Below are positions 14,518 through 36,609 of a stretch of DNA of 64,000 bases, piece after piece. The first letter of the stretch is position 1, and each line of letters starts with the position of its first letter. Origin of the DNA: Xenococcaceae cyanobacterium MO_167.B27 (lineage in GTDB: Bacteria; Cyanobacteriota; Cyanobacteriia; Cyanobacteriales; Xenococcaceae). The DNA lies in contig JASJCP010000024.1 in assembly GCA_030065935.1 (NCBI GenBank), positions 1-64,000 of the forward strand. The letters are read 5' to 3'. The notes beneath the pieces are model-generated. The model was not told the origin of the DNA. It worked only from the letters and a program-made list of their open reading frames with translations, and did not search any database. The position numbers and the translations under genes were made by a program.

Positions 14518-15012
14518 TTAGACTAATCTTTCTAGATCAAGAATAAAAATAGTTTTTGATGTGTCATCCTCTTGAGGAATAACAGCTACATGACTAGCTA
14601 TTCCTAGGGTATCTGCTTGACGATAAGTATTAGGAATAGTTCTGATTTGTGTCAGAGGAATATCCATTAATCTTGGGGTTTCATTTACCACAATTCCTAA
14701 AGGTTCACCAAGGAAGCTTTTGGTAATAATTAAATATTCTTTTTCCCTATCTAATTGGCTTTGACTAACTTTAAAAAGTTTTTGATGTAAATCAATAACC
14801 GTAATTTCTTGTTGGTCAATATGAGTCAAATGAACATGGGTCAAACCGCTACTATAGATAGTGCTTTTTTTAGTAACTTTTTTGACTTTAGCTACAGGTA
14901 AAGCTACGGTTAACTTGCCAATTGTAAATACAACTATTTTGAGGTAAGAATTAGATGTTTTAGCAGCAATGTATTCTAGAGAATCAAAAGTCTTAGATTG
15001 AGAATTAATCAT
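14518..15012 (-). CDS. CheW-like adaptor, last gene of the phototaxis locus
   Basis: A 164-residue single CheW domain (KIVVFTIGKLTVALPVAKVK, LTHIDQQEITVIDLHQKLF, PLGIVVNETPRLMDIPLTQI, IFILDLERLV). CheW proteins bridge receptor tips and the CheA kinase. It lies 141 bases downstream of the hybrid CheA gene on the same strand, with G-rich minisatellite repeats in the gap. The Synechocystis pix locus does not end with a CheW gene as far as I recall, so this copy may be an addition. The first 20 residues are not part of the domain. ATG 15012 lacks a clear ribosome site. Confidence 0.85.
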   Translation of the reverse strand: MINSQSKTFDSLEYIAAKTSNSYLKIVVFTIGKLTVALPVAKVKKVTKKSTIYSSGLTHVHLTHIDQQEITVIDLHQKLFKVSQSQLDREKEYLIITKSFLGEPLGIVVNETPRLMDIPLTQIRTIPNTYRQADTLGIASHVAVIPQEDDTSKTIFILDLERLV

Positions 15013-15153: not shown

Positions 15154-18100
15154 TTAATTTACTTGAGTAAAAGAATTTTTCTGAGCAATTAACTCTTCAA
15201 TTTGAACAATAAATTCTTCTTCTATGTAAGGCTTAGTAAAATAGGCGTTTGCTCCTAGTTGCTTGGCTAAATTACGATGTTTATCACTGCTGCGAGAAGT
15301 TAGCATTGCTACGGGAATTTGTTGTAATTGAGAATTTTTACGACGACTGTTGAGAAATTCAAACCCATTCATATTCGGCATTTCAATATCGCAAACAATC
15401 AAATCAATGTCTAATTGATTACGCAGTTGTTTCATGGCATCTTGTCCATCTTTAGCTTGGAAAACTTGATAGCCTTGATGTTGTAAGCTTAGAGCCATAG
15501 TACGGCGCAATGCAGAAGAATCGTCTATGATCATGATTTTGGTTTTGTTGTGAACTGTTTGAACAGTAGAATTAATACTGCCTATGAGTTCTGATGTTTG
15601 ATTTTTATTGCTATTGTCTAGAGATGTTTCTGGTTCAGACTCGGAATTAGAAATGGAAGACTGATTGACTCCCAAAAACTCATCAATTAGTGCTGCGCCA
15701 TTGAGTACGGGAATTAAAGTTCCATCACCCAAAATCGTGCAACCATAGGTATAGTTGGGAGCAGCCATGACTTTCCCAAAAGGCTTAATAACTAATTCTT
15801 GTTCTGTGATTAATTTTTTAATTTCTAAAGCAAAGAGTGTTGTTCCGCGACGGAGTAATAATAAGGGTAATTCCCAGTCTGGAGGTGCAGCAACCGAATC
15901 AAAGACTTTGCTACTGTTATCTATGGGCGGAAGGGTACAGTTATAGGGCAACATCCCCTTAAGATCACAAATAGGGATTAGGGCTTCATTCCAGAGGAAA
16001 AATCTTTGACCCCCTGAGAATTTGAATTGTTGGGGGAGAGGAATAATAATTTCTTCGATACTGTCTGAAGGGATAGCAAAGGTGGTAATACCCAGAGAAA
16101 ACACTAGTAATTTGGCAATAGTCAGAGTCAGAGGAAGACGTAAAGTAAAGGTGCTTCCTTTTCCTAGAACCGAACTAACAGTGATTGTTCCTTTGAGAGA
16201 TTCAATCTGCGATCGCACCACACTCATCCCGACACCGCGCCCTGAAATTTCACTTACTTTATCCGCCGTGGAAAACCCTGGTTCAAAAATGAGGTTGTAT
16301 AATTGTTGTTCTGAAAGATTATCAGCTTCTTCTTGAGTAATTAAGCCTTTTTTGACGGCTTTTTTGGCAATTTTGTTTAAATTTAGACCTTGACCATCGT
16401 CTTTTACTTCAATAACTGTTTGATTCCCTTGATAGTAAGCGTGAATCTCGATCTGACCTTGTTTTGGTTTCCCTTGTTGACGACGAATTTCTGGCGGTTC
16501 AATACCGTGATCGAAACCGTTGCGTAATAGGTGAAGTAGAGGATCATAGAGTTTTTCTAATACGGCTTTATCTACTAATACTCCAGTCCCAATCATTTCC
16601 AGATTTACGGGTTTTTTGTAGTTGTTGGATAAATCTCTGAGAGTACGAGGAAACCGCTTTAATATTTGCTCTAAAGGTAACATTCTCGCCCACATCAACT
16701 CATCTCGCATTTGTCCTAACATCTGACGTTGAGAATCGAGAGTTTTATTAGACTGTTGGGCAAAAAGAACCATATCATCTATACCTTCCTCTAACTGAAA
16801 TACCTCTTCGAGTATTTCCTGAAGTAGTAGATGAATATTGCTATAAGAATCCATTTCTAGAGAGTCAAATTCTTTAAAACTCTCGGATTTTTGCAGATAT
16901 TGATTTGGTTTAGAACCCTCGGATTCTATTAACATTTGGTCGGAAATTTCCCGTAATTTTCCTGTAATAGTCCTAAATCGCGCAAATTTTTCCGTTATCC
17001 CTCTGACATTATTTTGTAACTGTTCATTTTGTAGAGAGAGACTGTTACGGTTAATCACTAGCTCTCCTATCAAGTTATTCATGCGCTCTAGACGTTCAAG
17101 ATCGACTCTGACACTCAAGTTAGAGCCAGCAGCACTTTGTTGAGATTTTGTCTTGGGTTGGGAAGTTTTTGGAGTAGCTTTTACTGGAGTTGTCCTAGGC
17201 TTAGTTTCTAGTGGCGGTAACTGTTCAAAGATTTGTCCAATGGACTCTATGGCGGAGTCTAAGTTTTCTGGTGGTGCAAACTCTGCTTCTTGAGTTTCTT
17301 CTGTATTAGCTGTAACGGGTGGAGAAACGTCGGCAAAATCCAGATCGGAAGCTTCTAGGGAAGTACCAAAAATATCATCTAAAGCGGGTGTCTCAGAATC
17401 AAACAGAGAAACGGACTCTGGGCTATCTTCTAGATTTTGATATATTTCCCCAGTCTCATCATCGTCTGATCTTCCTGGTTCTGGAGGAACTAGGGCAAAA
17501 AGATCGAGACTGGCATTAGTATATAAGGCTTCTGATTCTTCTGGCTCGAAGTCTGAAACTTCACTAATATCAGCAAAAATATTATCTGCATCTAGATTGA
17601 GGCTAGGGTATGGGAAACTCTCTTCCTTATATTCATTGGCTTCTATGGGTGGAATTTCTCGATCTAGGCTTTCTATAGTTGTCCCAAATACATCATCAAG
17701 AGATAAGGGTTTTTCACTAAACGCTTCTGGAGCAAAAGCAATCTCTTCATCTGATGTTGTATCACCCAGAGAAAGATCTGAGTTAGCTCCTGCTAAAGTC
17801 ATCAAAGCAGAGGAAGGTTTACCACCTCTAGTGCGATCGCCTCCTAAAACCATATCCCTAGCAGCTTGACAATCATTAAGTAATACCTGAGCAATTTCGA
17901 GGGCGCGATCGGGACTATTCTGTAAAGCAGTATTAGTTAGTTGGATAATTTCACTAAAACCAGATAAGGTGAATAATTCGGCAAATCCTCCTAAAAGCTC
18001 AACCTGACTTTGTAATTCTCCTAATACATCAAAATTTTGCGGATTGCTGACTATTTGACTCAAAGTATCTAGAGATTGACCCACATCCACTTCAAAAATT

Positions 18101-18570
18101 GACGCGGTAATGTCTATTCCTAAGTCTGTCGCACTGGGAATATAGTTATCTGATTCTTGCAGAGCCTCCCCTAACATTTTCTCCAACTGCTCAAATATTG
18201 GTTCTGCTGTTGTGAGTGCTACAGTCTCATCAAATGACCCCATCTCCATCTGCTCAGTCAGAGGATTACGCAAACAATCATAAGCTTGTAATAATAAGTT
18301 CTCCAGTTCACTATCAAAGGTGACTTTTTCGCTATAGAGAGCTTTAAAAAAATCTTCTAAACGATGAGCTAAAGTTTTAATCCCCTCTAATTCTACACTA
18401 GCAGCCCCTCCTTTGATAGAATGAGCAGCCCTCATTAATTCGTGAACTTTAGGAGTACTATGATCTTGTTGAAGACTTAATAAACCATCTTCAAGTACCT
18501 GGAGAAGTTCTTGAGCTTCTTCAATAAAAAACTGATATGCTCGATCGCGAATATCGGGGTTGAGAGACAT
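15154..18570 (-). CDS. pixL: Hybrid CheA histidine kinase with C-terminal receiver (PixL-like)
   Basis: 1138 residues. Order: Hpt domain 1-110 with phospho-acceptor His50 in MRAAHSIKGGAA; an acidic linker with repeated DDIFGT motifs (about 260-440); dimerisation region near 485 (RLERMNNLIGELVINRN); HATPase about 640-800 (HLLRNGFDHGIEPP, GRGVGMSVV); CheW domain about 815-950; receiver about 1010-1130 with DD pair (IIDDSS) and phospho-acceptor Asp in VCDIEMPN. The kinase should phosphorylate its own receiver and the nearby CheY and PATAN regulators. It is 21 bases downstream of the second MCP gene, probably co-transcribed. Gene order matches Synechocystis sll0038-sll0043, hence the symbol by synteny. 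Confidence 0.9.
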   Translation of the reverse strand: MSLNPDIRDRAYQFFIEEAQELLQVLEDGLLSLQQDHSTPKVHELMRAAHSIKGGAASVELEGIKTLAHRLEDFFKALYSEKVTFDSELENLLLQAYDCLRNPLTEQMEMGSFDETVALTTAEPIFEQLEKMLGEALQESDNYIPSATDLGIDITASIFEVDVGQSLDTLSQIVSNPQNFDVLGELQSQVELLGGFAELFTLSGFSEIIQLTNTALQNSPDRALEIAQVLLNDCQAARDMVLGGDRTRGGKPSSALMTLAGANSDLSLGDTTSDEEIAFAPEAFSEKPLSLDDVFGTTIESLDREIPPIEANEYKEESFPYPSLNLDADNIFADISEVSDFEPEESEALYTNASLDLFALVPPEPGRSDDDETGEIYQNLEDSPESVSLFDSETPALDDIFGTSLEASDLDFADVSPPVTANTEETQEAEFAPPENLDSAIESIGQIFEQLPPLETKPRTTPVKATPKTSQPKTKSQQSAAGSNLSVRVDLERLERMNNLIGELVINRNSLSLQNEQLQNNVRGITEKFARFRTITGKLREISDQMLIESEGSKPNQYLQKSESFKEFDSLEMDSYSNIHLLLQEILEEVFQLEEGIDDMVLFAQQSNKTLDSQRQMLGQMRDELMWARMLPLEQILKRFPRTLRDLSNNYKKPVNLEMIGTGVLVDKAVLEKLYDPLLHLLRNGFDHGIEPPEIRRQQGKPKQGQIEIHAYYQGNQTVIEVKDDGQGLNLNKIAKKAVKKGLITQEEADNLSEQQLYNLIFEPGFSTADKVSEISGRGVGMSVVRSQIESLKGTITVSSVLGKGSTFTLRLPLTLTIAKLLVFSLGITTFAIPSDSIEEIIIPLPQQFKFSGGQRFFLWNEALIPICDLKGMLPYNCTLPPIDNSSKVFDSVAAPPDWELPLLLLRRGTTLFALEIKKLITEQELVIKPFGKVMAAPNYTYGCTILGDGTLIPVLNGAALIDEFLGVNQSSISNSESEPETSLDNSNKNQTSELIGSINSTVQTVHNKTKIMIIDDSSALRRTMALSLQHQGYQVFQAKDGQDAMKQLRNQLDIDLIVCDIEMPNMNGFEFLNSRRKNSQLQQIPVAMLTSRSSDKHRNLAKQLGANAYFTKPYIEEEFIVQIEELIAQKNSFTQVN

Positions 18571-18591: not shown

Positions 18592-21456
18592 CTAGGTTTT
18601 AAATTTATCTATTCCTGTTTGTAGTTTGCCTGCTACTGTCAACAGTTGTTGAATTTCCTCAGATACTTGAGTTGCAGATTGAGAGTTTTCTTGAGCCGTT
18701 GCTGCTACATGGGCAATATTTTTACTTACCAAATTAGAAGTCTCTAACTGCTGCAAGGCTGACTCAGCAATTTCAGTTACCAGTTTTTGAATTTCATTAC
18801 TAGCAGCAGTTACACTATCAAGACTTTGACGGGTTTGTTCTACAAGCTCTGTTCCTTCTACTACTTGCTGTGTTCCACTAGACATGGCTTTTACCACCTC
18901 AGTAGTTTCTAATTGAATTTTGGCGACAAAATTTTCAATATCCGCCGTAGCGGTAGCAGATTGACTAGCTAAAGAACGAACTTCATCCGCGATAACTGCA
19001 AAACCTTTTCCTTGTTCTCCCGCTCTTGCTGCTTCGATGGATGCTTTTAGAGCCAGCAAATGAGTTTGAGCAGCAAAACTACTGATTGAATCTAAAACTT
19101 GAGAAATTTCTTGGGATGATTCTCCTAAGCGTTTTACTTTTTGTTCTGTTTCTGTAACTGTTTTTTGTAGAATATTGATTTTGAGTACTGCTTGGTTTGT
19201 GGCATGATCACCAATATCAATAGTTTGTCCTGCTTTTTTGACAATTTCTTGGGCTTGAGATGCTCGTTCTGAAACACTACGAATTGATGAGTCAATTTCT
19301 TGAATATAAGCAACTGTTTGGAAAATAGATTCTGCTTGTTCTACTGATTCTTGGGCGAGTTTTTCTACTATGTTTTTACTGTTGTCGGCGGTGGTTTCTA
19401 CATCTTTGGCGACGGTTTTTACTTGATTAACTAATTTTTGTAAGCTGGCGATCGCAGCATTATAAGAGTCAGCAATTGTACCAATTTCGTCTTGTGTTAC
19501 CTTGGCTCTAATGGTCAAATCTCCTTGAGAAATGGGGTCAACTTCTTGCAGTAGTTCTATAGCTCGCCATTGCAACTGTTCTTGAGCTTGCTTGGCTTGA
19601 ATCTCTGCATTTTTCTGCTGTTCTAAAAACTCTAACCGTTCCAGAACAAAACCGAGTTGATTGGCTATTTGCTCTACAAAACTAATTTCTTGGGGCTGCC
19701 AATTTCGAGGACGAAAACATTGATGAGTTACTAATAAAGCAATTGGTTTTCCCTGGATAAAAATCGGGATTATTAAACTAGCTTGAACACCAAAAGACTG
19801 TAGTTGCTGTAATTGTTCCTTACTAAGATTAGCTTGTCGAATATCGTTAATTACTTGTACTTGATTAGAATTTTGTGCGATATATTCTTGAAGCCAATTA
19901 GGAGTATAGATTGTTTCTCCTATAGTAGATGTATTACCTTGAGCTAGGGATTCTACTTGAGTTTTTCCGATAAATTGCTCATCAAATTTATAATAAATTA
20001 CTCGTTCTACCGATAAGACAGAGCGAATTTCTTGAACGACAGTCTTAATAATTAGTTGTGAGTCTTGTAAGTTATTAATCTTAAGAATTATATCTTGAGT
20101 CTTTTTCGCTTGCTGTGCTTCTTCTTGTTGTTGCTTGATTAGTTTATTGACTTGAAAAATTAAATTATTAAAACTATAGGCTAAAGTTTGAGTTTCTAAT
20201 GTACCTTGGGGTTTGGCGACAACATCTAAATTACCGATGGCAGCTTGTTCAGCAGTAGTAGCTAAATCTACTAAAGGTTGGGACAATTTATTGGTGACAA
20301 CAATAATAATAATTGTTAAAGATATTATTAATACTAATGCAATAGGGAAGAGAATAGGAAGTAACTCACCGCCAGCAGTTTGTAACGCTAACTTATCAAT
20401 GGAAGCCACAGCAACCAAGTCTTGATTAGGGATAGGCATTAAGGTGTAGTATTTTTTCTGATAAATAAAGCTAACAACGACAATATTTTTTTTAGCATTA
20501 TAAAATTCAACATTGACATCTTTTAAATAATTCTTTTGTTGAAGAGTTTTTAATAATTCTTGAGAATTAATTTGAGGTTCAATCAGTAGGGCTGCTATTT
20601 CAGTAATTTCACTACCCCCAATCAAGTCTAGATTATTACTTAATCCTTGGTATTTAATAGTTTGTATTACTTTATTGTCTCCTGGTGCAATAAATTGAAA
20701 TATTTGAGATTCATCTATTCTTAAATGAGATAAATTATCTGCCACTACGTCAAAATAACTTCCTGGCAAAATAGCTTTGATAACTCCTAAAAATTCTCCT
20801 GTTTTAGGATCTGTGATAGCTTGGGCTAATTCAAAACCAACTGTATTAGCTGAATCATCAAACTTTGGAGAACTCAGCCATTTAGTTTCACTTTTACCTT
20901 TTTGCCACCAAGTTTCATCTCGCTGCACAAAATCCGATGTAGGTTCACTATAAGCAATATTAAACCCATTACGGTCTGTGTAAAAAACTTCTTCTAAACC
21001 AGAAATTTCGACAATTTTTTGGAGATATTTATTTAATTGTTCATTGGGGGTTAATAATTTATTAGTAGCAAATTTTTCTTCTAATTCAGAGATAGATAAC
21101 CGATCTAGTTTATCTTGTTTGACTTTTTGCTGACTGTTAATAACGGCATTTAAAGTGTCAGAGTTGGCAGCAATTAACTCAGTAAGTCTTACTGCTTCTA
21201 CTAATTTTTGTTCAATAGTTTCTCCAGCTAAGGCTACTTCATCAACCAACTGTTGTTTAATTTCTGCTTGAGCTTTTTCTTGAACTAAAAATCTGTATCC
21301 CAAAAAACCAGATAAAGTTACAGTACCTAGCACTGTAGGCAAAATTAGGGATAAAAGACGATTCCGAAGACTTACTCTTCTAAAAGATGGAGAAGTATTG
21401 GGATTTATAGCATCAATCTCTTGTGGTGTCACCAATAACGATGGATTTTGAGTCAT
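18592..21456 (-). CDS. Methyl-accepting chemotaxis protein with a bilin-site-less GAF domain
   Basis: 954 residues: cytoplasmic N-terminus, TM1 about 36-58, a periplasmic sensor about 60-360 ([20 protein letters not shown]), TM2 about 365-388, HAMP, GAF about 455-610, a second HAMP-like segment, and an MCP signalling domain. The GAF aligns with that of the neighbouring PixJ-like protein, but where that has DPCF this has TPNW (518-521), and where that has ECH this has KEQ, so no covalent bilin is expected. The receptor tip reads [18 protein letters not shown], with two usually conserved Asn changed. Position corresponds to PixJ2. ATG 21456 is chosen; the upstream 42 codons translate G-rich repeats. 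Confidence 0.88.
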   Translation of the reverse strand: MTQNPSLLVTPQEIDAINPNTSPSFRRVSLRNRLLSLILPTVLGTVTLSGFLGYRFLVQEKAQAEIKQQLVDEVALAGETIEQKLVEAVRLTELIAANSDTLNAVINSQQKVKQDKLDRLSISELEEKFATNKLLTPNEQLNKYLQKIVEISGLEEVFYTDRNGFNIAYSEPTSDFVQRDETWWQKGKSETKWLSSPKFDDSANTVGFELAQAITDPKTGEFLGVIKAILPGSYFDVVADNLSHLRIDESQIFQFIAPGDNKVIQTIKYQGLSNNLDLIGGSEITEIAALLIEPQINSQELLKTLQQKNYLKDVNVEFYNAKKNIVVVSFIYQKKYYTLMPIPNQDLVAVASIDKLALQTAGGELLPILFPIALVLIISLTIIIIVVTNKLSQPLVDLATTAEQAAIGNLDVVAKPQGTLETQTLAYSFNNLIFQVNKLIKQQQEEAQQAKKTQDIILKINNLQDSQLIIKTVVQEIRSVLSVERVIYYKFDEQFIGKTQVESLAQGNTSTIGETIYTPNWLQEYIAQNSNQVQVINDIRQANLSKEQLQQLQSFGVQASLIIPIFIQGKPIALLVTHQCFRPRNWQPQEISFVEQIANQLGFVLERLEFLEQQKNAEIQAKQAQEQLQWRAIELLQEVDPISQGDLTIRAKVTQDEIGTIADSYNAAIASLQKLVNQVKTVAKDVETTADNSKNIVEKLAQESVEQAESIFQTVAYIQEIDSSIRSVSERASQAQEIVKKAGQTIDIGDHATNQAVLKINILQKTVTETEQKVKRLGESSQEISQVLDSISSFAAQTHLLALKASIEAARAGEQGKGFAVIADEVRSLASQSATATADIENFVAKIQLETTEVVKAMSSGTQQVVEGTELVEQTRQSLDSVTAASNEIQKLVTEIAESALQQLETSNLVSKNIAHVAATAQENSQSATQVSEEIQQLLTVAGKLQTGIDKFKT

Positions 21457-21514
21457 GAAAGAAACCAAGTAATTCGATAGATAAGTAGTCGGTGCATCAG
21501 TTAAGAGCGATAGT

Positions 21515-21575
21515 TGAGATAGGGGATTGGGGATTGGGGGAATGGGGAAATGGGGGATTGGGGATTGGTACTTAA
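21515..21575. repeat. G-rich minisatellite (GGGGATTGGGG-like units)
   Basis: Six or more units of GGGGATTG/GGGGAAATG. The same unit occurs at 15020-15049 and 30012-30103. It lies in the 161-base gap between the two receptor genes and would be read as Pro-rich nonsense on the minus strand, which argues against an upstream start of the 18592-21456 gene. Confidence 0.7.
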
Positions 21576-21617
21576 TGAACAATAAACTATGACTAGAACA
21601 TCTTGATTGGTATAGAA

Positions 21618-23837
21618 CTAGCTAACTTTAAACTTGGCGACACTTGCTTCTAAGTGTTGCGCTACGGTTAAAAGCTCTTTAAAGGAATTAGATACCTGTA
21701 TAGCTTCGGTGGCTGTTTTTTCGGAGATGGCTGCTACTTGAGTCATGGTGTTAGTTACTATTTCTGAGTCTTGAGACTGTTCTACGGTAGCTTGAGCGAT
21801 CGCATTAACTAGTTGATTAATTTGTTCACTAACTTCTGATATCTGATTGAGAGAAGAACGAGTTTCATCAACTAATTTTGTACCCATAACTACTTGTTCT
21901 GTACCAGATTCCATAGCTGCTACGACTTCGTTTGTCTCTGACTGAATCTCTGCTACTAAAGACTCAATTTCTGCTGTCGCGTCGGCGGATTGTTTGGCTA
22001 GGGAGCGAACTTCGTCAGCAACTACAGCAAAACCACGCCCTTCTTCTCCTGCGTGGGCTGCTTCTATTGAAGCATTCAACGCTAAAAGATTAGTTTGATC
22101 GGCAAAGTTACTAATCAAATTCACCACCTTAGAAATTTTTTGGGAAGACTCTCCTAAACGCTTCACTTTTTTGGCGGTTTCTGCTACTGTTTCTCGAATC
22201 GCTTTAAAGCCATCTACGGTTCGGTTCATCACTTCGTCTCCAGTTTTAACTGTGTTAGAAGCTTGTTGTACTGCTAGTTCTGCTGCTTCTGCATTAGCTG
22301 CTACAGCTTTGATAGAATTAGCCATCGCCGTAATCCGATCTATAGCGGTAACAATTTCTTGAGTTTGTTCTGAAGCATCTTGAGCTAATCCTTGAATCGA
22401 AACTTCTTTCGCGCTGGTTGTGCTTGATACCAGCATGGCTGCGGTTTTTACTTGAGTTACTAGTTTTCCCAGACTTTCTATAGTGGAGTTATAAGAATCT
22501 GCAATTGTGCCAATTTCATCCTCTTTTACTTTGGCGCGGATAGTTAAATCCCCTTGACTGACGGGATCGACTTCCATTAATAACTCTAAAGCTCTTTGTT
22601 GCAGTGTTTCTTTGGCTTCTCTTTCTTTCTCTTGAGCTTTTTGCTGTTGTTCTAGCAAAGTCACTTTTTCTATAGCATTTCCCGACTGATTGGCAATTTG
22701 AAGTAATAAGTCTATTTCTGTTTCTTCCCAGATTCGTGAACCAACGCACTGATGAGCAATCAGCAAGCCAAATAGTTTTTCTCTCACTAGTATAGGAGTA
22801 ACGACACTAGCTTTGACTTCAAAAGACTCTAGTTGTTGAAGATGACATTCGGTTAATTCTGCTTGGTAAATATCAGATATTACTTGATATCTTCCTCGGC
22901 GATACTTTTCCGTATATTCTTCAGCAAAACAAGGGTCATAAATTTCTGCACCCAGAGACTCGGTAAAGCCTGCTAAGACTGACTCTGCTAATACTGTTCC
23001 TCGCCACTGCTCATCAAAACTATATATAATAACGCGATCGCAATTTAAGGCATTTAGCGCATCTTCTACCGCAATTTGAAACACCGTATCAAGATCAATG
23101 GCTTCCCCAACACGAAAAGCAATCTCTTTTAGAACACGAGAGCGTTTGGCTTCTTCTCGCAATTTAGTTTCATTAGCTTCAATAGAATCAGCCAAAACAT
23201 TAAAAGTACTAGCTAGTAAGCCAATTTCATCATTGTTCCTGACTACCGCCCTAGCTTGTATATTACCTTGGGAAAAATCTTGGGTTACTTGTTGCAACTC
23301 TTGAATCGGAGCAGCAATCGCTTTACCTAAAAAGTCTGCCAATAAAACGATAATCGCCAAGACAATTCCCGCCACAATTATCTGAGTCAAAAAATTAATC
23401 CAAAATAAACCTGCATTTAAAGAACTACCATAAACAATTACCCCAATAATTTCTCCTAAATCATTTTTAATTGTTCTTGCTGCTAAGGCGTAATTTTCAC
23501 CATTAATTTTGCTTTCCCCAGTAACAGTCTTATCGGGTTCGTTCAATAATTTTTCTAACCATGATGTATCAGCTAAGGGGACGGAAGAAGTTTCATTGTC
23601 TGCTGATTCTAACGAAGATGTGGCTAGGGTCAATTCTCCTGTTGCTTGGCGTAGATATACCGCATTATAATCTTGTTTAAATTGTTGAGCTTTTAAACTT
23701 TGTCGAAGAATAAATCCTCCCCAGCCAACTACTATTGTCAAAGAAGCAACACTTAACCAAGAAATTAAATTAGTTTTGCGACTAATGGGAAGATTATAAA
23801 TTGTTTGCACTAGAGAAGTAGCTTTGCTATTAGCCAT
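21618..23837 (-). CDS. pixJ: PixJ-like phototaxis receptor with DXCF cyanobacteriochrome GAF
   Basis: 739 residues: TM1 about 26-46, a short periplasmic loop, TM2 about 147-168, HAMP 168-222, GAF about 235-392, a second HAMP-like segment (415-470) and an MCP signalling domain with the standard tip [18 protein letters not shown]. The GAF has the canonical bilin-binding Cys331-His332 (TECHLQQL) and the second Cys303 in DPCF (301-304), 28 residues apart, the hallmark of DXCF cyanobacteriochromes, which absorb blue and green light. PixJ1 of Synechocystis is the phototaxis photoreceptor of this class but has two GAF domains; here there is one. Flanked by pixI-like and second receptor genes in the Synechocystis order. 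Confidence 0.9.
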
Positions 23838-24006: not shown

Positions 24007-24564
24007 CTAGAAATTTAGTTGGTTTTTAGGCATAGCAGAAATAATAGCATTGCCATTTAAAACTAGAATCATTTGTTCATCAGGATTGATAAAATATCCC
24101 TCTAAAAAAGGGGCTAATTTAGTGGTAACAGCAGAATTAGGGGGAGAATGAATCAAATCAGGATTGCACCATTCAATATCTTCAACTTGAGTCACAATTA
24201 GACCGAGGCTAGAAGTAGCAGTTCCTTTTTTGTGATTTTTTCTTTCTGAAGAAATCACAACAACGCTATAGTTAGTAGTATTCTTTTGTTGCTGATGCCA
24301 AGTATAAAGACCAATTAAATGTCCTAAGTCTATTGTCCAAAGAATTTCACCACGCCAGTTATAAACTCCCATTACCCAGGGTGGCATTTTAGGGATGGGA
24401 ACGATTTTTCTTAACGGGATTTTGAGGACTTCTGTTACATCTAAGATAGGTAACATCGTCTTAGTTTCTGGTTCAAGATGAAATTTTAAAAATTTTTTTT
24501 CCTTGATTTTTTGAGGGATATTTTCAGTGGCTAAGTTTGAAAAATTTGCTTGAGTAATAGACAC
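24007..24564 (-). CDS. pixI: CheW-like adaptor (PixI-like)
   Basis: 185 residues; the CheW domain occupies about 25-180, with ILDVTEVLKIPLRKIVPIPK, GVYNWRGEILWTIDLGHLIG and SLGLIVTQVEDIEWCNPDLI. The start is GTG at 24564 (MSITQANF); no ATG lies nearby. It sits 32 bases after the CheY-like gene and 169 bases before the photoreceptor gene, the position of pixI in Synechocystis. It should couple the PixJ-type receptors to the hybrid CheA. Confidence 0.85.
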   Translation of the reverse strand: MSITQANFSNLATENIPQKIKEKKFLKFHLEPETKTMLPILDVTEVLKIPLRKIVPIPKMPPWVMGVYNWRGEILWTIDLGHLIGLYTWHQQQKNTTNYSVVVISSERKNHKKGTATSSLGLIVTQVEDIEWCNPDLIHSPPNSAVTTKLAPFLEGYFINPDEQMILVLNGNAIISAMPKNQLNF

Positions 24565-24596: not shown

Positions 24597-24956
24597 TTAG
24601 ATTAGTTGTTGAACAGTACGGACTAATTCCTCTTGATCAATAGGTTTAGGAATATAAGCATCTGCACCCTGTTTTTTACCCCAAAATTTATCCATTTCTG
24701 TTCCTTTAGTAGAACAAATAATGATGGGAATTTTATTAGTATCTTCTGTTCCTTTGAGTTGCCGACAAATTTCAAATCCACTACGCCCAGGCAAAACCAC
24801 ATCTAAGAGAATTAAGTCAGGGTTAATTTGTTTGATTTTTTCCAGTGCTTCTTCTCCACTGGTGGCGATAGAAACATCAATGCCAATTTCTTGTAAGCAG
24901 CTAGTTAGTATAGCTCTTTCGGTAGCACAATCATCAACGATTAGAGCGTGTCCCAT
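24597..24956 (-). CDS. pixH: CheY-like single-domain response regulator (PixH-like)
   Basis: A stand-alone receiver of 119 residues with an intact phosphorylation site: acidic pair in IVDDCATE, phospho-acceptor Asp in ILLDVVLPGRSG, Thr/Ser switch in IICSTKG and the conserved Lys in YIPKPID. Such PilH/PixH regulators act with the PATAN regulator in controlling type IV pili. A GAGG ribosome site precedes ATG 24956. The pixI-like gene follows after 32 bases, so the two are probably co-transcribed. Confidence 0.88.
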   Translation of the reverse strand: MGHALIVDDCATERAILTSCLQEIGIDVSIATSGEEALEKIKQINPDLILLDVVLPGRSGFEICRQLKGTEDTNKIPIIICSTKGTEMDKFWGKKQGADAYIPKPIDQEELVRTVQQLI

Positions 24957-25138: not shown

Positions 25139-26350
25139 TCAATCTTTCTTTTGCCCTTTCTGTGTGAGATATTTATTAATTACATTTAGGAGAATTTCCT
25201 GTGTGACGGGTTTGCTAATAAAATCAGTAGAACCAACCATCTTAGCTCTAACGCGATCGATAATTCCATCATTACCTGTCACAATAACAATGGGAGTATT
25301 CCGAAAGTAAGAAAGCTTGCGTAATTGGGCGCAAATTTCATAGCCATTGGTATGAGGCATTACCAAATCTAAAAAAATTAAATCTGGTTTCCGACTTAAT
25401 AAAACTGCGATGGCCCTTAAGCCATCCATTTCGCTGACAAATTGATAACCAGCAGAAGTGACAGTCTCTTTCATCGTTTTACAGATAGCAGGACTATCAT
25501 CAATACAAGCAATCAAAGTGCGACTTGGGGTAATAGTTTTAGATAATCTTTTGGCGATGGGAGTAGATATAGGAGGCGGTATATCTTCGATGGCTACTAA
25601 CTGAACTAATCCTAGTTGTATATAAGGTAGCAAGGAGCGAGTTACTGTTACAACATCTCGCCTCATGCGAATACTTAAATCTCTTAAACTTTGTTGTCCA
25701 TCCAGAAGTTGACTAAGATTTTGATAAATTTGATTAGAAGTTCTTTTCTGTAAAGCCTCTGGTTGCCGAATCACAGGTGCCATATCAGGAGAACGATCTG
25801 CTATTTTAGCAGCTTGCCAAGCTTGCCATAGTTTATTGGCTTCTGCAATGATTTGTTGTGCATCAATCAAAGTTAGCCTAGTAGATAGTAAGTTATCTTG
25901 GACTGTTTCACACACAACTTCCACTGCTTGAGTAATATCAAACAATATTTCTACAACAGTAGCTTTGATAAAGCGACCAGCTTGTTCAGGAGTGATTTTC
26001 TTCTGATCGATCCAAACAGATAATAGTTTGTATTGCCAAGAAATTCGACATTCCTCAAGAGGAATAGCAGCTAGTTCTGATTGAACTTTATTAAGATGAG
26101 CTAGTCTTTGGGGACAATAGGCTGCAAGATTTCTGCGCCAGCGTCTTACTGGATGTAGCCCGCCAGTAGCATAAACAATTCGACCAAGATATAAATGAAT
26201 TATCCAAGAAGTTTCTTGGGAGTCAGTCACAATTAATTGACCGCTAAATTTAGCATCTTTGAGGGATTCAAAAAACTCTGTTTGCTTGGTTGCAGTAAAT
26301 TGTTGAATTCGGGTACGAGCATGACTAATTCCATTTTTGGCAGTCGTCAT
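25139..26350 (-). CDS. pixG: PATAN-domain response regulator (PixG/PatA-like)
   Basis: 403 residues: N-terminal PATAN region about 1-265 (SLKDAKFSGQLIVTDSQETS, LYLGRIVYATGGLHPVRRWR) and a C-terminal receiver about 280-400 with intact residues (ACIDDSPAI, LIFLDLVMPHTNGYE, VIVTG, FISKPV). In Synechocystis and filamentous relatives such proteins (PixG, PilG, PatA) sit at the head of chemotaxis-like operons and transmit the signal to the pilus motors. It is followed by the CheY, CheW, receptor and CheA genes of the pix order. The 425-residue protein at 38419-39696 is a close paralogue with a damaged receiver. Confidence 0.88.
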   Translation of the reverse strand: MTTAKNGISHARTRIQQFTATKQTEFFESLKDAKFSGQLIVTDSQETSWIIHLYLGRIVYATGGLHPVRRWRRNLAAYCPQRLAHLNKVQSELAAIPLEECRISWQYKLLSVWIDQKKITPEQAGRFIKATVVEILFDITQAVEVVCETVQDNLLSTRLTLIDAQQIIAEANKLWQAWQAAKIADRSPDMAPVIRQPEALQKRTSNQIYQNLSQLLDGQQSLRDLSIRMRRDVVTVTRSLLPYIQLGLVQLVAIEDIPPPISTPIAKRLSKTITPSRTLIACIDDSPAICKTMKETVTSAGYQFVSEMDGLRAIAVLLSRKPDLIFLDLVMPHTNGYEICAQLRKLSYFRNTPIVIVTGNDGIIDRVRAKMVGSTDFISKPVTQEILLNVINKYLTQKGQKKD

Positions 26351-26518: not shown

Positions 26519-27088
26519 TTAACTAGCCTCTAGATTTTCTGCGGTTATTACAGATTTTGTAAGTTTCTCTGTATCTAGAAAAAACATAACTGGAGTTTCG
26601 GGAATTTCAATAATTTGAGAGCTAATATACTGGATATTAGTTTTTTCGAGATATATTTGGGGTAAAGCTTTAAAAGCAGATTGCTCAACACGATACATTA
26701 CTGGTTGAGAATCTATAGGTAATCCCACAAGATTAGTATTCTGATCTTCTAAGATGATTAGATATCTTAATTCCATTGCTTCAAAAGCTTGCAAGTCTGC
26801 CCTATTATCATCTGTTGTCTTTGTTTCAGGCGAATTAGAATTTGTCAGACCAGAAAAAATATATTTGGCAACATCAATTACCAATAACTCTTTATCGTCA
26901 TAGTTGGTAAAACTAATTCCCTTATTCCCTGGATCGCCATAGATTTTACCTAAAGGGATTACTTTATATACTGCTAAAATTGGGACAGCAAACCATTCTT
27001 CAAATAAACGAAAAGCAATGATTTGTTGTTTGGCTTGATTTTGACGATTGGCAAATTGTCGAGAACGCAGAGTTGAAAATATACTCAT
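26519..27088 (-). CDS. CheW-like adaptor
   Basis: 189 residues; residues 20-180 look like a divergent CheW domain (QIIAFRLFEEWFAVPILAVY, KELLVIDVAKYIFSG, YLIILEDQNTNLVGLPID, VMFFLDTEKL). It follows the dCache receptor gene by 45 bases and precedes the pixG-like gene by 168 bases, so it belongs with the receptor rather than with the pix set. The insert around residues 85-105 is unusual for CheW. Confidence 0.75.
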   Translation of the reverse strand: MSIFSTLRSRQFANRQNQAKQQIIAFRLFEEWFAVPILAVYKVIPLGKIYGDPGNKGISFTNYDDKELLVIDVAKYIFSGLTNSNSPETKTTDDNRADLQAFEAMELRYLIILEDQNTNLVGLPIDSQPVMYRVEQSAFKALPQIYLEKTNIQYISSQIIEIPETPVMFFLDTEKLTKSVITAENLEAS

Positions 27089-27133
27089 ATCTTTATCTAT
27101 AACAAGATATTTAAGTTAAAAATAAATTGATAT

Positions 27134-29386
27134 TTATACCGTAAAAGTATTAACAGATGTCTCTAACTCTTGAGCAATTTTAACAGTAGTTTCTAAAGAA
27201 TTAGATACGGATTGAGAAATATCAGAAGTACGTTGAGAAACTTCAACAACTTGTTCCATTAACTTAGTTACTTTTTGAGAAGTTTCCGCTTGAGAAGTGG
27301 TGGCACTAGAAATAGACTGGAGTAATAAATCAATCTCTTGGGAAACTTCAACAATGCGTTCTAAACTATTTTTTGTGTTTTCTACTAGCTTTGTTCCTTC
27401 TACTACTTGGGCTGTACCAATTTCCATTGCTGCTACTACTTCTTGAGTTTCTTCTTGGATATTTTCGACAATTTCTTCAATTTCTTTAGTTGCTTCGGCA
27501 CTTCTGGCTGCTAATTCTCCTACTTCTTCTGCTACTACGGCAAAACCTTTTCCTTCTTCTCCAGCATGGGATGCTTCAATACTAGCGTTAATTGCTAGGA
27601 GATTAGTTTGCATGGCAATTTGATTAATCAGAGATACTACTTTAGAAATTTCTTGAGAAGATTCCCCTAGACGTTTGACTTTTTTGGTGGTTACAGCGAC
27701 GGTTTCTCTTAACTGTAAAATGCTATCAACTGTTTGTTGGATCGCCTTTCCTCCAGAAGTAGCACTGACAGATGCTGAATGGGAAACACGAGCTACTTCT
27801 TGAGCATTTTGCGCCACTTGTTGAATAGAATGGGTCATTTGCTCTACTTGATTGAGGGTATCAGTAATTTGTGCTACCTGTTTGAGAGCTTCTTGGGTTA
27901 CATTGCCAATTGCAGTCTCATTTTCACCGATAGAAGAGTTTACTTGAGTGGTGGTGGTTTTTACTTGAATTACGATATCTCGCAAACTTTCAATAATAGA
28001 ATTAAAAAAGTCAGCGACTATACTTATAGAACTGTCACTGATATTTGCTCTTACGGTTAAATTTCCATCTGATACTTCTTCGATGCTAGAAATAAACTGC
28101 AATAATTCTTGTTCTATGGCTTCTTTACTCTGCTTTTCTTGTTTGGCGATCGCAATTTGAGCTTTCATTTGTTCAGCAGCAATTGTTTCTTGTTCTTGAA
28201 TTAATTGTTGAATACGCTCCGCCATCTGATTGATATTGGTACTTAAAGTAGCTAATTCATCAGAATTATCAATAGTTAGTCTTTGCTCTAAATCACCTTG
28301 ACCAATTTTTTCAACGGTTGAAGCTGCTTTAATAATTGGTTGAACTAGTTGTTGCGCGGTAAAAATACTAATTATAGCAACCAGAATTGTAGTAGCTACT
28401 GTACTTAAAATCACTGCTTGACCAACGTTGGTTTGAACACTGTAAGCAATTGCTTCTTGAGTAACAATAAAACCATCCCAACCAAGTTGAGCAAATTCTG
28501 TTTCAAATTGATTGGGAACATAACTCCCTACAACATATCTTTTTTCTAATGGTTCGTAAAATTCTAATGTTTTAATTGTTCGTGCTTGACGTAATTCAGC
28601 AAAAGAAGGTAAATGATCCTGTGCTGGTCTATTAACTCCTTCTCGATCGTTAGTTAGAAAAACTATACCGTCTCGGTCTGCTATATGATAAGTAGAATCA
28701 TCCTTCAAGTTAAATTTTTGTACAACTTTTTCTAGTTGCTGAATAGACATTCTACTGCGGACAACACCAACTAATTTATTAGTCACTGAATCTTTAACAG
28801 GAGCAGCAAAGTAAATAACTATTTCTCCCACAGATTTAGAAAATCTTGGTTGAGAAATGAACGGTTGACCTGTTTGAATCACAGATTGAAAATAGTCATC
28901 ATCAAAATGATTCCTAGGAGTCGTACCATCTGAAACTGCTAGATCATTCCCCTCTAAATCTATGAAATTAATACTGTCATAGAAAATTTTATTTTGAGCA
29001 AAATTGCTTAATTCCAAGCTCTTTTGCTGGTTTGTGGTAGTATTTCTTAATTTAGCATCTTGTAATATTGATAAATTAGCAACAATTTTAATATCCTGAG
29101 AACCCTCTTTCAGAAAACTTTGAACTTCATCTAACATTGCTTTGGTATCATTTTGCTGAACCTCATAAACTTTTTTGGTGATAGCTTTATCGGCAATCTG
29201 ATAGGCAATAAAACCAGTAAACATAGTGGGCAATGCTCCTATGGCGATCGCCATTAAAGTTACCTTGGTTTTGAGAGAAATATTTTTAGTAAAATTCACA
29301 TACTTATGAGCTTTTTTCTGACCAATAGAGTCGGTATTTGATGGAGTTGTACTCTGTTCTATAACTAGCTTATCTTTTTGATTCAT
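27134..29386 (-). CDS. Methyl-accepting chemotaxis protein with dCache sensor
   Basis: 750 residues: cytoplasmic N-terminus, TM1 about 40-62, a periplasmic dCache-type sensor about 65-320 ([47 protein letters not shown]-like strand), TM2 about 325-347, HAMP, a second HAMP-like segment, and an MCP signalling domain with tip [20 protein letters not shown] (about 600-619). dCache domains usually bind small molecules such as amino acids or organic acids; the ligand cannot be read here. It lacks a GAF domain, unlike the pix receptors. CheW genes flank it on both sides, 87 and 45 bases away, forming a small module inside the larger locus. Confidence 0.88.
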
Positions 29387-29473
29387 ACCAAAGTTAAATA
29401 GCCTAAATAATTAATAATTAAATAAACATAGAATATTAAACTGTATCTTATTCCCATGAACCCCGCTATAGTT

Positions 29474-29992
29474 TTATGATTCAGAAGATAAAATAGGAGA
29501 ATTAACAATCGCTTCCGCATCTAGAACTAAAAAAAGTTGGTCTTTTTGTAAAGAACAACCTTTTAAATAGGGTACTAACCTAGGAGAAACAGTACCTACA
29601 GGAGATTGTATTTCTTCGTGACTAAGATGAATAACCCCTTGAACTTCAGTAACTACCAAACCAAGAGGAATATTATTACTACGGACAATAGCCAAATGAT
29701 AACTTTGTTGATTTCTTGCTATTGGTTGCATTCCGAGCATATAAGGTAAATCAACTACCCAAAATATATGACTACGTTGATTGATTAAACCCAAAATATA
29801 ATTGGACATATTGGGAACTGGACTAATTCTTTGACTAGAAACCAATAATACTTCTTTAGCATTGTCCATGGGTAAAACAGCAAATTTATTTGCTTCTAAT
29901 GCTAGTTTGACATAAGGTTTGCTAGTATCTTGTTCAAGATTATCTGCCCATAAAGATTCTATTTCCGACCTAGTTAAAGTTATCTTGTTCAT
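29474..29992 (-). CDS. CheW-like adaptor
   Basis: 172 residues with a CheW domain at about 25-165 (KLALEANKFAVLPMDNAKEV, YILGLINQRSHIFWVVDLPY, PLGLVVTEVQGVIHLSHEEI, LFLVLDAEAIV). First gene of the CheW-dCache MCP-CheW module. It is separated from the upstream hybrid CheA gene by 561 bases rich in hairpins, so it probably has its own promoter. No clear Shine-Dalgarno sequence before ATG 29992. Confidence 0.85.
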   Translation of the reverse strand: MNKITLTRSEIESLWADNLEQDTSKPYVKLALEANKFAVLPMDNAKEVLLVSSQRISPVPNMSNYILGLINQRSHIFWVVDLPYMLGMQPIARNQQSYHLAIVRSNNIPLGLVVTEVQGVIHLSHEEIQSPVGTVSPRLVPYLKGCSLQKDQLFLVLDAEAIVNSPILSSES

Positions 29993-30371
29993 CTTTTTTT
30001 TGCTATCAGAATGGGGAATTGGGACTGGGGAATGGGGGGACTGGGGAGTAGGGAGTAGGGAGTAGGCAATGGGGAATTGGGGGAAATGGGGAATTGGGGA
30101 ATTAATTGTTATTACTGATTAGGTGATTACTTCCTCATCCTTAATCCTTAATCCTTCATCCTTCTTCATCCTTCATCCTTGGGAATAGGGAATTACCCTC
30201 TTACTAGGTACGCTCTTCAATTTACGCTGAACTGATGTTAAATAGGTCTTCGACCCATCCCTAAAATTCCCAGGTTGGGAGGAAAACTAACATTAAGTCT
30301 GATAAATCTTGGACAAAATAAATCGAATTTATAGCACTACGCTTTTGGATTAGGACATCATATTTAACAGA

Positions 30372-30399
30372 GTAGGGGTAATTCATGAATTACCCCTAC
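30372..30399. repeat. 28-bp perfect palindrome
   Basis: GTAGGGGTAATTCA is followed immediately by its exact reverse complement. It could extrude a cruciform or fold as a 12- to 13-bp hairpin in RNA. It looks like a member of a dispersed palindromic repeat family of cyanobacteria. Confidence 0.8.
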
Positions 30400-30440
30400 A
30401 CAGACTATGTCATAACCTAAATTTGTATAGCTATAGTGTC

Positions 30441-30490
30441 AGTCCTCTTGAGAGGACTTGATAGTATTAGCCAAGAAATTTATTTCTTGG
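30441..30490. repeat. Two consecutive perfect hairpins
   Basis: AGTCCTCT-TG-AGAGGACT (30441-30458) and, 12 bases on, CCAAGAAA-TTTA-TTTCTTGG (30471-30490). Both have 8-bp perfect stems. Lying just downstream of the hybrid CheA gene (minus strand) they may stop or process its transcript, though neither has a terminator T-tract. Confidence 0.65.
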
Positions 30491-30553
30491 TGATTTATCG
30501 CGCCTGGTGCAAAATTATGAATAAAGTAAAATAGGCGGTGCATCGCCCTACTA

Positions 30554-33500
30554 TTACTTTGAAGAAGTGGTGATTACTTCTTTGAGAATTGCTAATAATT
30601 CTTTTTCTTTAAAAGGCTTACTGAAATACGCTGTCGCACCTAAGCTCATTGCTAGTCTGCGATGTTTGTCGCCACTGCGAGAAGTAAGCATAATGACGGG
30701 AATATCTTTGTGTTGAGGTTGAGCTTGAATACGACTCAGGAAACCAAAGCCATCAAGACGAGGCATTTCGATATCACAAATTACGGCTTGGGGTACAATG
30801 CCACTAGTAATTTTATCGATCGCATCTTGTCCATCTTTTGCTTGTTCAACTCGATAATTGGCTTTTTCCAAGGTTAGAGCCAAAAATCGGCGCACATTGA
30901 TGGAGTCATCTACCACCATAATTGTTTTTTGGGAGGAAATTGCTTTTGTGACGGTGGTGTTTTTACTACTATTCTGGGAAGGTAATAAAGTAGCAGAATT
31001 GAAGACAGGGCGATCTCCATTAATCCAATTTAATAAAGCACTCGCATCAACCAACAGCACAACTCGACCATCCCCGAGAATTGTACAGCCAGAAAACCCA
31101 GGAGGAAGAGGAATATTTCCTTCTATGGAGCGAATTGTAACTTCTTGTTCTTGCCAATAACGGTCTATTTGAATAGCTACTAAATCATCGTCTTGAGCAA
31201 TCATCAATACTGTAGGTACTTCTATGGTAGGGGTGTCTTCAATATCGTTGAGGAAATTGGCACTATACTGAGGAAGATTTAACCATTGATTGAGACGAAT
31301 CAAACGGATCATCATACCTTCCCAATTCAGTACCTCTTGACCAGTTGATTCTAAAATATTATCAGAATCTAGTAAGAGCATTTCTTCTATTACGTTTGTG
31401 GGAAAAGCCAGCAACATTCCACCACTTTCCACCAATAACACTCGAACTACAGAAAGAGTCAAGGGAACAGTAATAGTAAATGTTGTTCCTACTCCGAATT
31501 GAGTATTGACATTGATTGTACCTTTTACGGCTTCAATGTTGGTTTTGACTACATCCATTCCTACTCCTCGTCCTGAGAGGTCGGTAATTGCTTCTGCTGT
31601 GCTAAAACCAGGTTCAAAAATTAATTCTAATAAGCCCTCATCTCTGGCTTGATTAATATCTTCTTCATCAATACCCATTAATATAGCTTTGGCTTTAATC
31701 TTGTTAAGGTCAATACCACCTCCATCATCAGCAATAGTAATGATGGTTTGATTTCCCCGATGAGTTGCACGAATAGTGATAGTACCCTGTTCAGGTTTAT
31801 TATTGACTTCACGAATGTGTGGTGGTTCAATTCCGTGGTCGAAAGCGTTACGGAACAAGTGCATCAAAGGATCATTTAAAGCTTCCAGAATTGAGCGGTC
31901 AATTAAAGTCGAAGCACCTTGTATTTCCAGCTTGACTTTTTTCTCATACTGTATTTCCATATCTCGCAAAGCTCGCGGAAATCGGTCTAACAAGTCGGAA
32001 AGAGGGCGCATCCGAACCCTAGTAATGGTGCTTTGTAATTGCTTAGTAGTACTATTTAACTGCCTAGTGTTTTTTTCGGTATCTTCAAGGTTAATTTCAA
32101 TATCTTGTGCAACTTCTTTGATTTGGACAACAGTTTCCATAACTTCTTGGGAAAGAAGATGGATATCACTGTAGTTATCCATTTCTAAGCTATCAAAATA
32201 TTCTGGGGTAAGACCCAGGGTAACTTTATTATTAAGCTCAGAAGCAATAGAAGTGACAATAGCTTGATTTACCAAAGCACCATTACTAGGAGTTACAACT
32301 TTTTCAATAGGGTGATTGCGCTTGTCGAGCTTTCCTCTACCAGCCTCACCGTCATAAGCAATTCTTAAATTAAAATTAGATTGTTCGAGGGTTTTAATTC
32401 TTTGACCAAGGAGATTAACTAGATTACGTAAGTTTTTCAGTTTTAACCCCAAGCCATTTCTTTGAATCGCTACTTCTCCAAATAAATCACTTAGTTTCTC
32501 TAGCTGTTTAACGGGGACTCGAATTGTCTGATCTTGTACAGAGGAATTGGAATCGTTAGAAGTTACTGGAACAGGATTGATAGTAGCAGAAGGGACAATA
32601 TTTTTTTCCTGTTTAGGAGATTGAGCAATAGGTAAGGAAGCAGCAGCAATAATCTCCAAGTCTTGAGGAATAGTGATATCTTCTGGTTGTTCTGAAACGG
32701 AAGATTCTGGGGTAATTTTTTCTAAAGACGAAAATAACTCTAATGCTTCTTGCTCTAGGTTATTAGTATCTAGTAAAGAGCCTAAAAAGTGTGAGTCTGG
32801 TAGCTCATCGACAAAATCAGAAGAGGATACCTGGGAGAAAAATCCAGTCTCACTTAAGACAAAGTCACTTTCAGTTTCTAAATTATCTAGTTCTAATGCG
32901 GTGGGAAGTACCTCTGTTTGTCCTACTAACACCAAAGCTTGGGAACGTCGCCATTCTTCTATAGCTGCTTGTGCAATGATTTCTACTTGTTCTGGAATCT
33001 GCTCTATCTGCTCAATTACTGATTGACAAAGCTCACAAAAGGGTTCTAGTTCTAGCATTTCCCCTAAACCGCTCAATTCTTGGGCTGCTGATAATAAATC
33101 CCGAGATAAATTGGTGGTGGTACTATTTTTTAAGCTATTTTCTAGTTGTTGTAGTAATTCTTCTACTTCGGTTTCAAAAATGAGAGTACTCATGTCCTCT
33201 CCCACTTCCGCAGAAAGAAGGGCTGCATCATCTTCTGGTTGGGGTTCTCCTATAATGTTATGAAGTTGCTCAAGTACAGGATTAACCGTCTGTTCCAGCC
33301 ATTGAGGATCGATAGTAGCCTTTTGCCGATTAAAATGAATAATTTGACGCAGAGAATCGACGGCAGTCAAAAATAGCTGTTCTACGTTACTGGAAACCCC
33401 CATTTTACGAGCTTTTAGAACTTTAAAGAAGTCTTCCAAGCGATGAGCTAAATGACTAAGTGCATCAAACCCCATCATCGCTGCGCCACCTTTAATGGAG

Positions 33501-33646
33501 TGAGCAGCACGTAAAACTCCGTCCATTTCTTGAGAATTCACCCCACCAGAGCTTAATCCCAATAATCCAGACTCAATATCGTTTAAGTACTCTTGTGCTT
33601 CTTCGAGAAACTGGAGTCTTACCTGAAGTTCTTTATCTTCTGACAT
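30554..33646 (-). CDS. Hybrid CheA histidine kinase with C-terminal receiver, second system
   Basis: 1030 residues with the same architecture as the PixL-like kinase: Hpt 1-110 with His49 in LRAAHSIKGGAAMMG; dimerisation region about 375 (KQLEKLSDLFGEVAIQRN); HATPase about 560-715 (HLFRNAFDHGIEPP, GRGVGMDVVKTN); CheW domain about 720-870; receiver about 908-1025 with IM-VVDDS and phospho-acceptor Asp954 in ICDIEMPRLDG. In cyanobacteria such kinases belong to PilL (tax3) or tax2 clusters. It follows the receptor gene by 38 bases, so they are surely co-transcribed. Sequence alone does not tell which Synechocystis system is closest. Confidence 0.9.
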   Translation of the reverse strand: MSEDKELQVRLQFLEEAQEYLNDIESGLLGLSSGGVNSQEMDGVLRAAHSIKGGAAMMGFDALSHLAHRLEDFFKVLKARKMGVSSNVEQLFLTAVDSLRQIIHFNRQKATIDPQWLEQTVNPVLEQLHNIIGEPQPEDDAALLSAEVGEDMSTLIFETEVEELLQQLENSLKNSTTTNLSRDLLSAAQELSGLGEMLELEPFCELCQSVIEQIEQIPEQVEIIAQAAIEEWRRSQALVLVGQTEVLPTALELDNLETESDFVLSETGFFSQVSSSDFVDELPDSHFLGSLLDTNNLEQEALELFSSLEKITPESSVSEQPEDITIPQDLEIIAAASLPIAQSPKQEKNIVPSATINPVPVTSNDSNSSVQDQTIRVPVKQLEKLSDLFGEVAIQRNGLGLKLKNLRNLVNLLGQRIKTLEQSNFNLRIAYDGEAGRGKLDKRNHPIEKVVTPSNGALVNQAIVTSIASELNNKVTLGLTPEYFDSLEMDNYSDIHLLSQEVMETVVQIKEVAQDIEINLEDTEKNTRQLNSTTKQLQSTITRVRMRPLSDLLDRFPRALRDMEIQYEKKVKLEIQGASTLIDRSILEALNDPLMHLFRNAFDHGIEPPHIREVNNKPEQGTITIRATHRGNQTIITIADDGGGIDLNKIKAKAILMGIDEEDINQARDEGLLELIFEPGFSTAEAITDLSGRGVGMDVVKTNIEAVKGTINVNTQFGVGTTFTITVPLTLSVVRVLLVESGGMLLAFPTNVIEEMLLLDSDNILESTGQEVLNWEGMMIRLIRLNQWLNLPQYSANFLNDIEDTPTIEVPTVLMIAQDDDLVAIQIDRYWQEQEVTIRSIEGNIPLPPGFSGCTILGDGRVVLLVDASALLNWINGDRPVFNSATLLPSQNSSKNTTVTKAISSQKTIMVVDDSINVRRFLALTLEKANYRVEQAKDGQDAIDKITSGIVPQAVICDIEMPRLDGFGFLSRIQAQPQHKDIPVIMLTSRSGDKHRRLAMSLGATAYFSKPFKEKELLAILKEVITTSSK

Positions 33647-33684
33647 ATCGTCTTTATGGTAGTAAAGTGTAGTTGTGATTGGTG

Positions 33685-36123: not shown

Positions 36124-36196
36124 AGAATTGAAAAATAATTAGTATTAACTAATAGCTATTTATAAAATAATCTGGTTTTGTTTTAACCTTGTGCAA

Positions 36197-36559: not shown

Positions 36560-36609
36560 GATTTTTAAATTCTCCTGTTATATTATATTTTTAAAATTAC
36601 AGAAACTAA

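Follow-up and report, generated by a model that had tools for sequence, protein, structure and literature searches.

The gene at 21618-23837 of the window (the whole stretch of 64,000 nt that was analysed) encodes a chemoreceptor with a photosensor-like GAF domain, and it raises the question of whether this is a reduced form of the phototaxis receptor PixJ with a simple path from light to kinase, as the initial annotation had it, or a receptor of a known kind in a less simple system. We computed domains, cysteine positions, gene order, a tree, fold predictions and dN/dS.

The pix operon and its genomic setting

A same-strand run of genes for PATAN-REC, REC, CheW, PixJ1, a second GAF-MCP and CheA-REC surrounds the receptor, and the phototaxis (pix) operon context assigned earlier is borne out by the domains and the order of the pix genes, all on one strand:

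15154..18570, minus strand: pixL, Hpt-CheA-CheW-REC histidine kinase (Pfam)
18592..21582, minus strand: pixJ2, receptor with dCache-like N-terminus, TM, GAF, HAMP-like stretch and MCP
21618..23837, minus strand: pixJ1, TM-HAMP-GAF-(HAMP)-MCP receptor, 739 aa from ATG
24007..24564, minus strand: pixI, CheW (Pfam)
24597..24956, minus strand: pixH, CheY-like receiver (Pfam)
25139..26350, minus strand: pixG, response regulator with DUF4388 (here called PATAN) and receiver (Pfam)

We take the exact order pixG-H-I-J1-J2-L to be that of the Synechocystis locus tags sll0038-sll0043. The components of the operon match those given for the tax1 (pix) cluster of Synechocystis in PMC5812497 and PMC7076178. 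The window belongs to a draft genome (7.0 Mb, 282 contigs) whose closest named relatives are three Xenococcaceae MAGs at 81–88% identity, followed at 58–70% identity by Hyella patelloides, Xenococcus PCC 7305, Waterburya and Pleurocapsa.

A second chemosensory cluster (26519-37857) lies directly upstream of the pix operon on the same strand, with genes for an MCP (27134-29386), CheW (29474-29992), CheA-REC (30554-33646), another MCP (33685-36123), REC (36197-36559) and PATAN-REC (36610-37857). Both of its MCPs are without a GAF domain, and pieces of the same arrangement are also found before pixG at loci L041, L044, L045, L046 and L051. Near both clusters there is a third PATAN-REC response regulator (38419-39696, 425 aa). 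Two short ORFs, 14518-15012 (adjoining pixL on its downstream side) and 26519-27088, resemble divergent CheW by eye; neither is found with the CheW seed. The window also holds a FAD-dependent oxidoreductase (DAO) fused to ThiG in one ORF (41874-43877), a 772-aa ORF with a TTG start and no Pfam match at E≤0.001 (46462-48780), and a phosphoketolase-like, possibly divergent gene with partial, low-scoring matches to XFP and transketolase (10874-13105). Elsewhere in the same genome, another pix-like operon (L160:5229-8090) has a single-GAF receptor lacking both bilin cysteines (QLEY/GINH); L160-like receptors at L162, L163, L164, L166, L167, L168, L169 and L170 are Cys-less too. A further receptor of this genome, beside a CheA gene (L161:6471-9611), has three GAFs, each of which carries the DXCF and the canonical cysteine.

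The cyanobacteriochrome-type GAF domain of PixJ1

PixJ1 runs from two TM segments (25-43 and 153-171 in a hydropathy scan) through a HAMP domain, one GAF domain and a HAMP-like stretch to the MCP domain:

21726..22265, minus strand: MCP signalling domain, aa 525-704 (Pfam)
22458..22583, minus strand: second HAMP-like stretch, aa ~419-460 (homology to PixJ2 HAMP and TePixJ HAMPs)
22638..23120, minus strand: DXCF cyanobacteriochrome-type GAF, aa 240-400 (phmmer, Pfam, AlphaFold)
22842..22847, minus strand: canonical Cys331-His332 (aligned to TePixJ TECH)
22926..22937, minus strand: DPCF motif with the second cysteine, Cys303 (aligned to TePixJ DPCF)
23178..23333, minus strand: HAMP after TM2, aa 169-220 (Pfam)
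23325..23765, minus strand: TM1, shortened periplasmic loop (aa ~44-152) and TM2

Pfam matches comprise HAMP (169-220), one GAF (248-389) and MCPsignal (525-704), and residues 69-139 match sCache_3_3 under the Pfam cut-off (20.1 versus 28.8 bits). In the layout proposed earlier, with one GAF between two HAMPs followed by an MCP domain, the GAF, the first HAMP and the MCP thus stand on Pfam; the second HAMP has no Pfam call in PixJ1 itself and is accepted by homology only, since residues ~419-460 resemble PixJ2 684-715 (a Pfam HAMP) and TePixJ has two HAMP stretches.

The cysteines are exactly where they had been annotated, with Cys303 within DPCF and Cys331 before His332, 28 residues apart. 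A phmmer search gave the GAF domain of TePixJ from Thermosynechococcus (3vv4) as the top solved structure, with PixJ1 240-397 aligned gap-free to its residues 36-193 (E=5e-40), DPCF over DPCF and TECH over TECH, placing both cysteines on the DXCF and canonical sites and not outside them. This gap-free alignment, together with the retention of both cysteines in 18 of 23 family orthologues, indicates that the pair is beyond chance. The AlphaFold model of the PixJ1 GAF (23 family sequences, pLDDT 90.9) has the TePixJ GAF 4fof as its best PDB match (TMq 0.89), suggesting a cyanobacteriochrome GAF fold. The assignment of a DXCF-type cyanobacteriochrome GAF, with its second cysteine and a canonical cysteine next to a histidine, in a PixJ-type MCP is supported, and PixJ1 has the further marks of a PixJ: TM anchors, HAMP, MCP and a pixG-H-I-J-L operon. 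Judged by sequence, it looks like an ordinary TePixJ-type photoreceptor, a known kind of protein. The genome has three matches to PF05996 (bilin reductase family), so bilins should be available.

Our blue/green reading of this domain (see below) builds on the typical DXCF photochemistry outlined in PMC11284453. DXCF proteins can also have teal, yellow or orange photoproducts, according to PMC5240096, and identity to TePixJ is just 44% in the fold alignment, which leaves some room for another photocycle (blue/teal, blue/orange, or with phycocyanobilin unisomerised). We consider this unlikely, since no solved structure is closer in sequence than TePixJ, with which PixJ1 shares identical DPCF and TECH motifs.

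GAF number and the periplasmic region

A single GAF had been taken as the sign of a reduced PixJ, an idea that we reject because the prototype TePixJ is itself a single-GAF protein with the same core gene order, and because PixJ proteins are described as carrying one to five GAFs (PMC13383048, 2025). A search with the TePixJ GAF against 386 genomes of the window's phylum found matches at E≤1e-55 in four, in one case with 100% identity and in a frame of 941 codons (L156). This frame encodes a 940-aa protein with dCache, one GAF, two HAMP stretches and MCP, in an operon of the order PATAN-REC/REC/CheW/PixJ/CheA; 940 residues is also the TePixJ length given in a figure legend of PMC6955287. TePixJ (3vv4, 4glq, 4fof; L156) thus shares with PixJ1 one DXCF GAF, flanking HAMP stretches, MCP and the core operon order; it differs in having a full dCache (Pfam 86-319), whereas the periplasmic part of PixJ1 is shortened, and in the absence of a second receptor gene from its operon, where the window has the Cys-less PixJ2. 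PixJ1 of Synechocystis PCC 6803 (sll0041) is likewise described as an MCP cyanobacteriochrome of the tax1 (pix) cluster (PMC5812497), and that organism also has a pixJ2 gene, sll0042 (PMC7076178), but the Synechocystis protein is reported to have two GAFs and to bind bilin with the second only (PMC5812497), compared with one GAF in PixJ1 of the window.

PixJ1 matches at E≤1e-150 were present in 23 of 27 genomes of the window's family, and all 23 proteins have one GAF (two of them, from L040 and L053, are truncated where the contig ends, either upstream of TM2 or within the periplasmic part). At 14 loci from 13 genomes of the window's order but outside its family, the number of GAFs in the first receptor is one at three loci and two to six at 11.

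What is reduced in PixJ1, judged from the alignment, is its periplasmic region. Only 239 residues precede the GAF, versus 417 in the genus mates L038 and L039, and this shortfall of 178 residues lies in the periplasmic region, past TM1 and ahead of the region's C-terminal part. The GAF starts at 274-314 in ten other uncut family PixJ1 proteins, and for two of the ten, L042 and L050, an alignment shows gap borders that differ from those of the window protein, so that periplasmic shortening seems to recur in the family. The short periplasmic part in the window, a single copy, could also stem from an assembly error.

PixJ2, a receptor without bilin-anchoring cysteines

The gene that follows pixJ1 probably starts at the ATG at 21456 (chosen by eye from homologue starts). 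PixJ2 has a dCache-like N-terminus (30.8 bits, under the Pfam cut-off of 45) and is 44% identical to PixJ1 across the shared part; its GAF domain has neither the DXCF nor the canonical cysteine:

19627..20085, minus strand: Cys-less GAF of PixJ2, with TPNW and SKEQ at the two Cys sites

The sole cysteine of PixJ2 (996 aa), Cys622, lies away from both bilin sites in an HQC stretch, where sighted GAFs (those with both bilin cysteines, as opposed to blind ones with neither) carry a cysteine too, and a compensating cysteine was therefore ruled out. At the same time, the AlphaFold model of this domain (20 sequences, pLDDT 92.7) has TePixJ 4glq as its best PDB match (TMq 0.88), as would be expected of a cyanobacteriochrome GAF fold, and we predict that it is a cyanobacteriochrome-type fold without pigment anchors, which might also bind bilin non-covalently. 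That the operon holds a second receptor, Cys-less and presumably signalling to the same CheA, argues against the simple light-to-kinase path that had been proposed for PixJ1.

Cysteine loss across the family

When 43 receptor GAFs of the family were typed, 19 had both cysteines, 24 had neither and none had only one. The two positions in the operon differed: both cysteines were present in 18/23 first receptors (neither in 5/23), and neither was present in 19/20 second receptors (both in one, L048). Each of the 20 operons that extend to the gene after pixJ1 has a second receptor there, the remaining three of 23 being cut off by a contig end. In one family member, L055, a cysteine lies one place past the canonical site, and this receptor may not be wholly blind. 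Waterburya agarophytonicola (L050/L081), of the same family, also combines a single-GAF PixJ1 with both cysteines and a Cys-less second receptor; its pix genes are already published (PMC8580901).

In a tree of 74 rows, first receptors formed one group (23 rows) and second receptors another (20 rows), with support of 99 each (a quick tree with SH-aLRT support only and the cysteine columns kept). The five blind first receptors fell on three branches (L042 with L043, L054, and L058 with L059), and in L042 (L079, Xenococcus sp. PCC 7305) the second receptor is blind as well. PF05996 matches occur in all five genomes, and the 30 loci fetched from these include, for each genome, one or more further GAFs with both the DXCF and the canonical cysteine, indicating that cysteine loss is specific to the operon and not genome-wide. 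The five blind first receptors suggest that light sensing by the pix operon is dispensable in the family. A search of the open-licence PMC literature found no paper on cysteine loss in the second Pix receptor, which is weak evidence of absence.

Sighted and blind receptors beyond the family

We then compared 45 operons with at least two adjacent GAF receptors, 20 from the family and 25 from elsewhere, chosen by similarity to PixJ1 (duplicates were dropped and operons ending before the second gene left out, while L041 and L092 were kept despite their truncated second receptors). The full cysteine pair was present in the first receptor alone in 24 operons (14 family, 10 other), in both receptors in 15, in neither in six and in the second alone in none. 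By the canonical cysteine alone, the counts were 23 for first only, 0 for second only, 16 for both and 6 for neither. A quick tree of 93 receptors required a minimum of 11 changes between sighted and blind, four in first and seven in later receptors.

Because this set had been picked by PixJ1 similarity, the search was repeated with PixJ2, which gave matches at E≤1e-125 in 72 of 291 genomes of the window's order and 47 regions, 12 with receptors already counted and 35 new. At least two complete GAF-MCP genes were present in 23 of the 35; both receptors were sighted in 20 and only the first in two, while in L225 the first two receptors were blind and the third sighted. In a further counter-example, L219, a blind first receptor is followed by a truncated one that is sighted (L219 lies outside the 23, as what is visible of the second gene has no MCP). 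L225 and L219 rule out a strict order in which a blind receptor never lies upstream of a sighted one. With a sighted/blind pair in 12 of 48 operons outside the window's family, the order of sighted first and blind second is a tendency, strong only in that family.

Selection on the GAF domains

Pairwise NG86 dN/dS for 13 pairs (a crude measure, with some dS near or above 1) gave GAF values of 0.31, 0.16 and 0.25 between sighted first receptors, 0.20 and 0.26 between blind first receptors, 0.58, 0.67, 0.22, 0.28, 0.26 and 0.47 between blind second receptors, and 0.22 (first) and 0.30 (second) for mixed pairs. MCP values were 0.02–0.20 overall and 0.07–0.20 for second receptors. This suggests that Cys-less GAFs are still constrained, least so in the window's genus, where PixJ2 has the highest GAF values of the 13 pairs (0.58 and 0.67), which could also be read as slow decay. 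PixJ2 might accordingly be a functionless, decaying duplicate, but this seems rather improbable given that a second receptor is kept next to pixJ1 in every visible family operon, that the MCP domains of second receptors are this constrained and that the PixJ2 GAF has a confident fold model. That the pix operon has gone out of light use, leaving PixJ1 a chemosensor with a vestigial GAF, finds a precedent in the five blind family PixJ1 proteins but is very improbable for the window, where both cysteine motifs are intact and comparison with two genus mates gives GAF dN/dS values of 0.31 and 0.16.

Proposed mechanism

We favour a joint explanation, at a probability of roughly 85%, in which PixJ1 is a TePixJ-type blue/green photoreceptor and PixJ2 a light-blind co-receptor. 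The first part draws on the aligned cysteines, the TMq of 0.89, the GAF number, the core operon and PF05996, and the second on the single, off-site cysteine of PixJ2, the 19/20 Cys-less second receptors of the family and their GAF dN/dS of 0.22–0.67. From these we infer the chromophore, colours, signal direction, link to pili and role of PixJ2 as follows. The PixJ1 GAF would most likely bind phycocyanobilin at Cys331 and isomerise it to phycoviolobilin, switching between a dark state that absorbs blue, in which Cys303 forms a second thioether, and a photoproduct that absorbs green. The change upon illumination would reach the MCP coil by way of the second HAMP-like stretch and, via PixI (CheW), alter autophosphorylation of PixL (CheA), with PixG and PixH passing the signal on to type IV pili, in line with the model of PixJ1, PixL, PixG and PixH and the PixJ1 function presented for Synechocystis in PMC5812497. 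PixJ2 would most likely sit in one array with PixJ1 and either contribute an input other than light via its dCache-like domain or set the kinase baseline.

The literature is divided on how directly PixJ controls movement: in Nostoc punctiforme, PixJ is reportedly not responsible for phototactic motility (Harwood 2021, as cited in PMC9090330), and in Phormidium lacuna it is described as a down-regulator of photophobotaxis (PMC13383048). More tentatively, and with somewhat less than even odds, family pix operons may pair a light sensor with a functional blind sister, the first receptor later becoming blind in some lineages and leaving an operon for non-light taxis while other light sensors are kept.

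The claim of novelty for PixJ1 fails, since TePixJ has a single GAF and the same core operon and PixJ proteins with one to five GAFs are described (PMC13383048). PixJ1 itself is one more TePixJ-like protein; its blind partner is more unusual and is the modestly interesting part of this operon. If PixJ2 is functional, the family would offer a natural set of sighted and blind receptors with repeated losses, and such pairs could be used to test how a photoreceptor MCP merges light and non-light inputs, and to ask whether a bilin-less GAF has gained another ligand.
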